Origin: Gammaproteobacteria bacterium
Lineage (GTDB): Bacteria > Pseudomonadota > Gammaproteobacteria > JAADGQ01
Assembly: GCA_021648145.1 (NCBI GenBank)
Contig: JAKITI010000007.1
Coordinates: 65,018 to 129,017, forward strand
DNA length: 64,000 bases
Reading direction: 5' to 3'
In this document: positions 20,103 through 23,614 of the stretch, in pieces
Position numbering within the stretch: the first letter of the stretch is position 1
Layout of the letters: each line of letters begins with the position of its first letter
Made by a program: the position numbers and the translations under genes
The notes under the pieces: model-generated
The model's input: only the letters and a program-made list of their open reading frames with translations
Told to the model about the DNA's origin: nothing
Databases searched by the model: none

Positions 20103-20834
20103 ATGGATAGTGTATTGTTGATTCAAAAAGAGACATCCGGTCGAGCATTGGGGAGCAATGCCTTAATCGAACCGGCCTTCCTTTCAAACTTGAGCATCAT
20201 TGAGGGTGACCGAGCGTTAGGTGAGCGGGTTTCAAACCATCTGGCGCGCAAAATTGTTCGACGGATTGCTGATCTGGAGAGCCATACTCAGCGAATTATT
20301 ATTTATTCAAAATTTCAAAATCCAGACGCGGTCTATGGAGCGTTGTTAGACCTATTTATCGCACTTGGGGATAAGGGGTTTTTGATACGGCAAAGAATGT
20401 TGAATATGGTTGCCGAAGTTATTGGCTGTGCTCGTTATTCACAACTTCTTGGCGTATTGGATCGGGGAATAACGACTGATGAGTTATTGCCATGCACGCC
20501 TTATTCTATGTTAAGTGGTAGTTTTGTAGGAGCCAGTCGGCTTGTATATAAGTGCTCAATGGATGACATGGATATCAGGTCACCTCTGGAGGAAGCACGG
20601 GATCTTGTTGATTCAGGGATGATTGATGAAGGGAGGAAGCTTCTAGAGTCAAGTTTGTTGCTGGATCGTGGTAATGAAGCTCTTAATATAGAGTTGTTGG
20701 AAATTTACCGACATACAGAAGATGCAAATGCATTTAACAGAATGTTCGTTAAATTAGGCCGAAAACCATTGGCGGCGGTTGAAGAGTGGAATCGCTTGAA
20801 CGAACTTTTTGAAAAAAGTGAGGTGTCAACTTGA
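20103..20834 (+). CDS. FimV C-terminal/TPR-like protein, first gene of a GTPase-roadblock cluster
   Basis: 243 residues, no signal peptide or membrane helix. The N-terminal two thirds is helical and unrecognised. Residues about 160-228 (SPLEEARDLVDSGMIDEGRK, then LLLDRGNEALNIELLEIY) match the TPR-like repeat of the FimV/HubP C-terminal cytoplasmic domain, known as an interaction module at the cell pole. It overlaps the next gene by 4 bases (ATGA-type arrangement on TTG), so the two are translated together. An adaptor or scaffold role for the downstream GTPase is inferred. Confidence 0.6.
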   Translation: MDSVLLIQKETSGRALGSNALIEPAFLSNLSIIEGDRALGERVSNHLARKIVRRIADLESHTQRIIIYSKFQNPDAVYGALLDLFIALGDKGFLIRQRMLNMVAEVIGCARYSQLLGVLDRGITTDELLPCTPYSMLSGSFVGASRLVYKCSMDDMDIRSPLEEARDLVDSGMIDEGRKLLESSLLLDRGNEALNIELLEIYRHTEDANAFNRMFVKLGRKPLAAVEEWNRLNELFEKSEVST

Positions 20835-21961
20835 CTTCACCGACTAAAATGGTTGCATTTGGCGTTGATCAGCGCTCACGTGAAATGCTTCGAATGGTTT
20901 TTGCCGGCCCTGGAAATGGTATGTATGAGTTGGCCGAAGAATCTGTTGCAACGGCTGCCATTATTAATATGGATAGTTTGGGGGCTGAAGAGTTATTGAT
21001 CAAGTATCGAAAACGTCACCCATCACTGCCTACGATTTTGATTGCAATAAAACGCCCTGAACTAGAGCAACAAGGTGACTCCGAGTTTATTTTTGTACAA
21101 AAGCCAATGCGTGTTGATCGGCTGATTAAAGCACTTGCCTGTTTGCCGGTTAGTGAGCCTAAGTCTCCTCAGCCTCCACCCGCTACTTTATCGTCAGTAA
21201 AAGTCAAACAAGCAACAAGAGAAACACAGCGTTTAAAAAGAACGCGTAATGCAACTAAAATGCTGGAATCAATGGAAAGAAGCAGCACAACTCAAGAAAT
21301 TGATTCTTACGAAGAAAATAGAGAAGAGTCGATATATTTTGATGCTTCGGATCTACTGTTAGGGTATTTACTTCAAGCACGCAATCAAGCATTTTCCAGT
21401 AATCAGCCTGTTAGAATTGAAGACCAGCTGGTGGGTGGAGTTAAGCCTATTACTTTATTGCCAAAAAGTGCCGAAGTTGTAACCAGTATGACGGATGATG
21501 AACTGAAGTCCTTGTGCTTTGTTAAGCTGGATAACGCGGTCAATATTCGGCCTTTTACGACAGAGCAATCAGACGCTATAGACCCAAGTGCTGAAAAACA
21601 GTCGCTGGAATCTTTTATCTGGAAAGTTGCGATATGGACATCAAATGGCCGTGTGCCGGAAGGTACTCAGGTCGCAGCACACACATCATTAAAACAATGG
21701 CCTAATTTTACACGCCTCATGATGACACCTAATGCATTACGTATTTCCGCATTGTGGAATGATAGGCCGTACTCGCCTTTATTGGTTGCTAAAGTGCTTA
21801 AAGTCCCGGTTCAGCATGTTTTTTCTTTTTATACAGCCGCTCATTCGATTGGTTTGATCAACACTGCGGTACAGAAGAGTTCGACCTCAGTGGATGTTAA
21901 AAAACATAAACATCGCAGTTTATTTAAGCGGATTTTAAGTCACATTAAAAGGTCGGGTTAA
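20831..21961 (+). CDS. Pseudo-receiver protein of the GTPase-roadblock cluster
   Basis: 376 residues. The first 115 follow the fold of a response-regulator receiver (VAFGVDQRSREML, AIINMDSLGAEELL, LPTILIAI, FVQKPMRVDRLI), but the phosphoacceptor aspartate position is occupied by Asn46. The conserved Lys of the KP motif remains. A polar linker (about 120-165) leads to an unrecognised C-terminal region ending in helix-turn-helix-like text (SPLLVAKVLKVPVQHVFSFY) and a basic tail. The start is TTG. It is probably a non-phosphorylated protein-protein module acting with the GTPase at 22025. Confidence 0.55.
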   Translation: MTSPTKMVAFGVDQRSREMLRMVFAGPGNGMYELAEESVATAAIINMDSLGAEELLIKYRKRHPSLPTILIAIKRPELEQQGDSEFIFVQKPMRVDRLIKALACLPVSEPKSPQPPPATLSSVKVKQATRETQRLKRTRNATKMLESMERSSTTQEIDSYEENREESIYFDASDLLLGYLLQARNQAFSSNQPVRIEDQLVGGVKPITLLPKSAEVVTSMTDDELKSLCFVKLDNAVNIRPFTTEQSDAIDPSAEKQSLESFIWKVAIWTSNGRVPEGTQVAAHTSLKQWPNFTRLMMTPNALRISALWNDRPYSPLLVAKVLKVPVQHVFSFYTAAHSIGLINTAVQKSSTSVDVKKHKHRSLFKRILSHIKRSG

Positions 21962-22024
21962 TAACTCGAATATGGGGCGTAATATCATTGAAAGTGATGG
22001 TAAATAAAAAAGTTTGGGTATCAG

Positions 22025-22561
22025 ATGAGCAACTATAAAATAATATTCACAGGCCCAGTCGGTGCGGGTAAAAGTACTGCAATCGCAGCTTTGAGTGATG
22101 TTCCTCCTGTGACGACAGATGAACAGGCCAGTGATATGACAAAAGAGCTGAAACCAACCACCACAGTCGCGATGGATTATGGTGTGATGAAGCTTGGTGG
22201 AGATGAGTGTATTCATCTCTATGGTACGCCCGGCCAGGAAAGATTCAATTTTATGTGGGATATTCTTAGCGAAGGAGGGTTGGGATTGGTGTTATTGCTT
22301 AATAATGCACGTAATGACCCTTTTTTGGATTTGCACTTTTTCATGAACTCATTCAAAGGCTTTATTGAGCAGACAAAGGTTGTCATTGGTGTGACCCAGG
22401 TGGATTTGGCATCACATCCGCGAATTGATGATTATCATACTGAGTTGCAGAAAATGAATTTAAATGTTCCGGTATTTTCTGTTGATGCGCGTCAACGTGA
22501 TGACGTTTCAATTATGGTGCAGGCACTGCTTTATTCACTAGATCCTGGGCTGGGGGGGTAA
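22025..22561 (+). CDS. Ras-like small GTPase (MglA/COG2229-like)
   Basis: 178 residues. The G1 P-loop is GPVGAGKS (10-17), a switch-I Thr run is at 46-48, G3 is YGTPGQE (Gly replacing the usual Asp, as in MglA and COG2229 GTPases), and G4 is TQVD (120-123) in place of NKxD. Prokaryotic Ras-like GTPases of this type act as polarity switches, turned off by roadblock-domain partners. A roadblock gene lies two genes downstream. Its stop shares one base with the next start. Confidence 0.8.
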   Translation: MSNYKIIFTGPVGAGKSTAIAALSDVPPVTTDEQASDMTKELKPTTTVAMDYGVMKLGGDECIHLYGTPGQERFNFMWDILSEGGLGLVLLLNNARNDPFLDLHFFMNSFKGFIEQTKVVIGVTQVDLASHPRIDDYHTELQKMNLNVPVFSVDARQRDDVSIMVQALLYSLDPGLGG

Positions 22562-23196
22562 TGTCAAACTATCAAATCGCCGAAAACCGATATGTTACGC
22601 CAACTCCGGCAGGCGCATACTATGCAGTGTCCAGTCAATCAGAGGATATTGCGCGTAAGTTATTACTTCACTTGTTAGCTCAAAGTAGTACTCAGCTGTT
22701 TGATTTGGATGAGCTGCATTCGTGGGGCTTTAATGATGAGCATAGCGATGATGTTTTAGATCTTATACACCGAATGCAAAATCTGGGTTGGATACAAGGG
22801 AGTATAGCATCAAAGAAAGCTCCATTAGGCACGATTGAAGAAGAGCTTCCTCATTTGCTGGAAGCCCTCACGATTAATGGAAAAGCACTACTTGCAGATG
22901 GTGATGGTTTTTATCTTGCAACACATGGTTTTCCCCATGAAGCTGCCGAGGAAATTTCAGCACTGAGTGCTGATTTATCAAAACTGCACGATCGTCACGA
23001 AGGGTTGTTGAAAAACAACTTGAGTATTACAGTATCTGCATGGGGTGTGATTGATGCTGCAGGTAATAGCCAATTAGGGTTTTGGCCTATTTATATTGGC
23101 TCAAGCCACTTTGTGCTGGTTTTGTCGGGTTTGCCTAACTTAAATCAGTCTGCTTTCGTTGATTTGGTTTGGTTGTTAGGAAGGCGTTATTCATAA
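22561..23196 (+). CDS. Winged-helix plus roadblock-like protein of the GTPase cluster
   Basis: 211 residues, family not recognised. Residues 1-90 look like a winged helix (ARKLLLHLLAQSSTQLFDLD, VLDLIHRMQNLGWIQGS). Residues 95-210 have the order of a roadblock/LC7 fold: a leading helix, GKALLADGDGFYLATHGF, a helix AAEEISALSADLSKLHDRH, and paired strands ending in VLVLSGLPNLNQSAFVDLVW. A roadblock-like heterodimer with the downstream protein, or direct GTPase binding, is inferred from fold and position only. It overlaps the GTPase gene by one base. Confidence 0.55.
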   Translation: MSNYQIAENRYVTPTPAGAYYAVSSQSEDIARKLLLHLLAQSSTQLFDLDELHSWGFNDEHSDDVLDLIHRMQNLGWIQGSIASKKAPLGTIEEELPHLLEALTINGKALLADGDGFYLATHGFPHEAAEEISALSADLSKLHDRHEGLLKNNLSITVSAWGVIDAAGNSQLGFWPIYIGSSHFVLVLSGLPNLNQSAFVDLVWLLGRRYS

Positions 23197-23251
23197 GTAG
23201 CCAAGTAAAATTATTTTACAACACTGAAATGATTCAAGGAGTATAGAAACA

Positions 23252-23614
23252 ATGCGTGAAGAAATGATTTCGTCAATTCTCAGCGATTTAAATGGAACTT
23301 CAGCCGATATTGAGGCTTCAGCTGTTATTTCTACTGATGGTTTAATGATTGCCGCACTGTTGCCGAGTGGCATGGATGAAGATCGTGTTGGCGCAATGTC
23401 GGCCGCCATGCTCTCTTTAGGTGATCGAACGGCTCAAGAGTTAGCCCGGGGGAGTCTGGAACAAGTTATGATAAAGGGTAATCAAGGCTATGTTTTGATG
23501 ACTCACTCTGGAGAAGATGCTGTTCTATCTGTACTTGCTAAACCGAATGCCAGATTAGGTCTGATTTTTCTTGACGTAAAAAGAGCCGCCGAGAATATTA
23601 CTAAATTACTTTAA
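23252..23614 (+). CDS. Roadblock/LC7 domain protein (MglB-like)
   Basis: 120 residues covering a single roadblock domain: helix REEMISSILSDLNGT, strand pair AVISTDGLMIAALLPSG, the long helix RVGAMSAAMLSLGDRTAQEL and strands GYVLMTHSGEDAVLSVLA. MglB-type roadblock dimers are GTPase-activating proteins for MglA-type GTPases, so this is the likely partner of the protein at 22025. It is preceded by AAGGAG and closes the five-gene cluster. Confidence 0.85.
   Translation: MREEMISSILSDLNGTSADIEASAVISTDGLMIAALLPSGMDEDRVGAMSAAMLSLGDRTAQELARGSLEQVMIKGNQGYVLMTHSGEDAVLSVLAKPNARLGLIFLDVKRAAENITKLL

Follow-up and report, generated by a model that had tools for sequence, protein, structure and literature searches.

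The analysed window comprises 64,000 nucleotides of a contig from a gammaproteobacterium (JAKITI010000007.1) and harbours five ORFs on the plus strand at positions 20103-23614, hereafter referred to as genes A to E. Gene A (20103..20834, 243 aa) and gene B (20831..21961, 376 aa, start codon TTG) overlap by 4 bases, as they also do in the sister species (L016). A gap of 63 bases separates gene B from gene C (22025..22561, 178 aa), which overlaps by 1 base with gene D (22561..23196, 211 aa), and gene E (23252..23614, 120 aa) follows after 55 bases. These coordinates and the four junction lengths agree exactly with those of the original prediction, which had also placed the cluster between fur and pdxJ. 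The flanking genes are indeed smpB, a ratA-like gene, rnfH, bamE (minus strand) and fur on one side and pdxJ, located 96 bases behind gene E, acpS and a DUF349 gene on the other. With dN/dS ratios of 0.17 (A), 0.15 (B), 0.04 (C), 0.07 (D) and 0.00 (E) in comparison to the sister species, genes A to E are real genes under purifying selection.

By its sequence motifs gene C encodes a small GTPase. Both the P-loop (G1, GPVGAGKS) and the YGTPGQ motif noted in the original prediction were detected, and the GTPGQ of G3 is invariant across 36 aligned relatives. In G2 the arginine of Group 1 MglA proteins is replaced by a threonine (T-T-V-A), G4 reads TQVD and lacks the lysine which is found at this position in some relatives, and G5 corresponds to DAR, as in 77 of 80 relatives. 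The protein scores above the cut-off of the Pfam model Ras (24.5 bits, cut-off 21.6) and higher with ATP_bind_1 (46.5 bits), and it shares 58-63% identity with its homologues in Neisseria. Because G4 lacks the lysine of guanine specificity, the use of GTP by the gene C product is a presumption.

The same marks, namely GTPGQ, threonine instead of arginine in G2, a G4 often without lysine and DAR, characterise Group 3 MglA in the relevant passages of the survey by Wuichet and Sogaard-Andersen (2015; PMC4316618). According to these passages the group is known from sequence in beta- and gammaproteobacteria, Neisseria being named, and its closely conserved neighbourhoods encode a protein with a receiver-like N-terminus and a predicted winged-helix C-terminus, the MglA and one or two MglBs. 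Based on its motifs, its partners and the gene order in common with Neisseria the cluster can be assigned to the Group 3 MglA systems. Judging from the passages on this group, genes B to E thus represent the already published system and not a new combination. A literature search on Group 3 turned up only the 2015 survey and a study of Snodgrassella, and it retrieved no biochemistry on any Group 3 GTPase.

The order A-B-C-D-E is kept from gammaproteobacteria to Neisseria in dozens of genomes and recurs in a considerable proportion of the loci, which were fetched by their GTPase gene; gene A is missing from some Group 3 loci. The linkage of the five genes in related genomes, on which the original prediction had been staked, is therefore preserved. 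In a second Group 3 layout (L054-L062, L065, L078, L087, L092, L095) genes B and C precede a gene for an ABC-type ATPase with a fused phosphatase-like domain and one for a small protein that is roadblock-like but matches no Pfam model; a ferredoxin-like reductase gene is often present as well. Furthermore, some genomes encode two to five Group 3-like GTPases (G034 with L011 and L014, G028, G173, G240, G366), and a C-B-C tandem in G034 suggests duplicated switches.

The product of gene E is an MglB-type roadblock protein, as indicated by its match to the Pfam model Robl_LC7 (58 bits, E 8e-16), its similarity to the solved roadblock proteins of Thorarchaeota (7f8m, E 1.9e-26) and CvnB5 (3leq, E 1.9e-9), and the invariant D29-G30 pair expected of the MglBs of Groups 2-5. 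Gene D scored 15 bits with the roadblock model of Pfam, which is under the cut-off; a phmmer search against the PDB gave no match, and a profile search against the same database found nothing better than CvnB5 at E 0.1, followed by a single weaker match. Since the sequence searches against the PDB gave almost nothing, a fold prediction was needed for this protein. For its AlphaFold model (pLDDT 93.1) the matches listed by Foldseek in the PDB were roadblock proteins or roadblock-containing complexes, with an E of 2.0e-4 for the MglB of M. xanthus. The model consists of a helical, winged-helix-like N-terminal region and a divergent roadblock domain (residues about 92-211), and gene D is accordingly predicted to encode a roadblock fold. 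The original prediction had made its validity dependent on roadblock folds of the proteins starting at 22561 and 23252, and these were recovered by AlphaFold and Foldseek for gene D and by Pfam for gene E. Its proposal of an MglA-type GTPase with roadblock proteins was thus borne out by the motifs of gene C, the sequence of gene E and the fold of gene D.

A profile of gene B matches receiver domains in the PDB (8svz, E 1.2e-4). The protein is composed of the receiver domain, a variable linker and a conserved C-terminal region, and a C-terminal winged helix is a prediction made for the Group 3 receiver-like protein in the survey's section on this group (PMC4316618). Like a canonical response regulator it keeps the lysine of the KP motif, which is invariant in the family, whereas the acid pair of beta-1 is replaced by G-x-D (G in 36 of 47 sequences) and the presumed phospho-Asp position is occupied by D in 36 and by N in 11 of the 47, the window having N46. 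By its sequence gene B therefore encodes a receiver fold that lacks the usual pocket for phosphorylation, and the pseudo-receiver identity given to the second protein in the original prediction held.

Gene A gave no match in Pfam or NCBIfam, neither to FimV_core nor to FimV_Cterm nor to any other model. In its product a disordered linker connects an all-helical domain (about residues 18-117), which is conserved in the gene A family only and for which no relative was found elsewhere, to a FimV-type TPR (about residues 155-240). The AlphaFold model is helical (pLDDT 86, pTM 0.54) and as a whole retrieved no significant match with Foldseek; given the disordered linker between its domains, this result carries little weight. 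A search of 369 genomes of the class with a profile of 35 relatives detected full-length A genes, mostly within a few kilobases of the GTPase gene, while most other matches covered only residues about 157-236 and lay in much longer ORFs. In the genome of the window this long ORF encodes a FimV with FimV_core and FimV_Cterm. An alignment of both with hhalign (probability 95.9, E 5.8e-9) covered FimV residues 519-599, a segment distinct from the FimV_Cterm domain at 749-792. As judged by profile, the TPR of gene A is thus a homologue of the cytoplasmic TPR inside FimV. The designation as a FimV-C-like TPR protein therefore stands as far as the relationship to FimV is concerned, but the matching part is the internal cytoplasmic TPR and not FimV_Cterm.

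Compared to FimV/HubP, the gene A product shares the cytoplasmic TPR but has no FimV_core or FimV_Cterm matches, and in gammaproteobacteria it also has no membrane segment. The A proteins of Neisseria, which were detected by a profile built without Neisseria, possess an additional N-terminal membrane segment. A profile of the Neisseria A proteins did not match the FimV of the genome of the window, so that the link to FimV is based on the gammaproteobacterial proteins. Moreover, homology between the TPRs does not prove that gene A and FimV have partners in common.

In most gammaproteobacterial loci the D-E interval or the region behind gene E holds one to three small genes. Their products are small single-domain proteins which match the Pfam models PAS, Phosphonate-bd (PhnD-like), CZB or Protoglobin, each over the cut-off. 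Among the 44 non-Neisseria loci with gene D and downstream genes 32 harbour at least one PAS, CZB, protoglobin or PhnD-like gene. Across 62 loci 61 sensor genes were located inside the operon zone and 2 outside, an enrichment whose p value is inflated by taking gene clusters from the same loci. The RHPDMP motif was present in 19 of 21 operon PAS proteins; we take it to be the motif of the FAD-binding PAS of Aer and therefore refer to these proteins as Aer-like. The PhnD-like proteins appear by eye to have an N-terminus without signal peptide. In the sister species PAS and PhnD-like genes are located between gene E and pdxJ, whereas neither the window nor Neisseria has sensor genes within the operon, and a whole-genome search with working controls detected no PhnD-like gene in the genome of the window.

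Elsewhere in this genome a roadblock gene is followed after 35 bases on the same strand by an ODP gene (L128:5980-7142, C2; also L003), the ODP being of the oxygen-binding diiron type and the pair lying beside cytochrome-c-like genes. The adjacency recurs in G001 and G011; as a general rule, that ODP genes adjoin roadblock genes is unsupported, with adjacency in 3 of 185 genomes. At a further locus (L127:5057-8412, C23; also L002) a protoglobin gene and a roadblock gene are arranged tail to tail; they adjoin a gene of 365 aa that matches no Pfam model and a gene whose 304-aa product has a roadblock match at its C-terminus. Considering the sensors added in the operons of relatives and the further roadblock genes by protoglobin and ODP genes in its own genome, it is doubtful that the cluster is self-contained, as had been proposed.

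According to its gene content the genome of the window encodes type IVa pili and FimV: TfpB (910 bits) and PilM (420 bits) score over their cut-offs, two PilT-family ATPases are present, and FimV has both its core and C-terminal domains. PilB by the standard model remained under the cut-off, and the pilus ATPase is TfpB, which exceeds its own. A second FimV_core protein without FimV_Cterm is encoded about 8 kb from the TfpB gene (L125:1962-4313, C1), and another locus (L123:4107-6476, C10) encodes a PilB/GspE-like ATPase of 789 aa, which has an additional N-terminal portion and an MshE-type c-di-GMP-binding motif that scores over the cut-off.

In the survey of 369 genomes a PilT-family gene was found in all 62 Group 3-positive genomes and in 247 of the 307 others (Fisher p 7e-6), in a test that treats genomes as independent of ancestry and for a gene that is common in the class. 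The PilT-family gene is an imperfect pilus marker, since the E. coli control was positive. Downstream of the operon pilB and pilC are located in L023 and two FimV genes in L049, while most Group 3 loci have no pilus gene alongside. In Snodgrassella, a Group 3 organism according to its authors, motile flares and gut colonisation are both altered when an orphan mglB carries a point mutation (PMC11112851). SgmX, a TPR partner of the Myxococcus MglA system, is reported to act on type IV pili (PMC7519303). From this context and the co-occurrence we infer a coupling of the operon to pili, and the system may act in polarity or surface sensing, as originally proposed.

The identities of the GTPase, roadblock, pseudo-receiver and TPR proteins follow from sequence or predicted structure. 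From them we infer how the proteins interact, in which direction the signal runs and what the output is: a GTPase switch that, by means of FimV-type TPR contacts, would act on type IV pili at the pole, a reading to which we assign a probability of about 0.5. Gene E, alone or together with gene D, would set the nucleotide state of gene C as MglB does for MglA, and gene D may additionally bind some partner via its N-terminal region. Gene B would recruit or gate the complex, similar to RomR. Gene A might serve as the effector or adaptor that brings the GTP-bound gene C product into polar FimV-type TPR contacts and through them to the pilus machine, a role modelled on the TPR protein SgmX in Myxococcus. 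In relatives the roadblock proteins would be set by small soluble sensors of oxygen, redox state and zinc, and in the window this input would have to come from elsewhere, for instance from the separate operon with roadblock and ODP genes or the roadblock/protoglobin pair.

A more far-reaching version, in which a Ras-like switch directs movement on surfaces, towards or away from certain oxygen and redox conditions, is offered tentatively and appears rather doubtful. In it no chemotaxis kinase would be involved, and the signal would pass from the sensors via the roadblocks, Group 3 MglA and the FimV-type TPR to type IV pili at the pole. Its sensors would be interchangeable and soluble, comprising the Aer-like PAS, protoglobin, CZB, ODP and PhnD-like proteins. 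Elsewhere PAS, protoglobin, CZB, ODP and PhnD-like domains are parts of chemoreceptors or transporters.

The helical, winged-helix-like N-terminal region of gene D also allows for a transcription switch, in which genes B and D bind DNA by their winged-helix regions under control of the GTPase state, the more so as the Group 3 passages of PMC4316618 predicted a winged helix in gene B and proposed gene regulation. However, winged helices often bind proteins, and the first gene encodes a FimV-type TPR protein, membrane-anchored in Neisseria, which points to the envelope; a function in transcription thus seems unlikely. About equally improbable is a polarity or envelope switch that acts via FimV but mainly on type II secretion, Chp/cAMP, chemosensory arrays or cell-wall growth instead of pili. 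FimV/HubP proteins are established to serve several polar machines, and besides the intact FimV the genome of the window contains a gene set (L124) which reads by eye as gsp-type type II secretion. The reported action on type IV pili of a tested MglA system whose TPR partner is SgmX (PMC7519303) and the PilT-family gene in every Group 3 genome surveyed argue instead for the pilus output.

Given the sensor genes in 32 of the 44 non-Neisseria loci, RHPDMP in 19 of 21 PAS proteins and the adjacency of roadblock genes to an ODP gene and a protoglobin gene in the genome of the window, the system might also be regarded as an energy- or redox-sensing module reading small soluble sensors, with the version in the window as a reduced remnant. 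Yet genes A to E of the window are under purifying selection although it lacks operon sensors, as does Neisseria, and ODP and roadblock genes adjoin in just 3 of 185 genomes, so that we consider this explanation very improbable.

Group 3 MglA occurs in many beta- and gammaproteobacteria including Neisseria. The TPR gene and the interchangeable oxygen, redox and zinc sensors provide concrete candidates for its effector and inputs, and with them it can be examined whether pili are steered by Ras-like switches beyond Myxococcus and Thermus as well.

With the Group 3 systems of PMC4316618 the cluster shares the receiver-like protein, an MglA with GTPGQ and DAR but without the G4 lysine, and two MglB-type proteins, whereas the FimV-type TPR gene and the operon sensor genes go unmentioned in the survey's account of this group. 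As far as the relevant parts of the papers show, gene A and the sensor genes in the operons of relatives are hence undescribed in the literature found. The Myxococcus system of MglA, MglB, MglC, RomR and SgmX (Group 1) likewise combines a GTPase, a roadblock pair and receiver-like and TPR partners with a link to type IV pili. However, the Group 1 MglAs of Myxococcus and Thermus have TVPGQ and an intrinsic arginine finger in G2 where gene C has GTPGQ and threonine; here gene B is receiver-like, corresponding to RomR by analogy, and gene A, in the place of SgmX, is FimV-like. The actinobacterial conservons (Group 2, CvnA-D) resemble the cluster in their compact operon, the combination of GTPase and roadblock and the sensory input beside the GTPase, but they include a histidine kinase in the membrane and a single roadblock protein, whereas here a pseudo-receiver and two roadblock proteins are encoded without a kinase.
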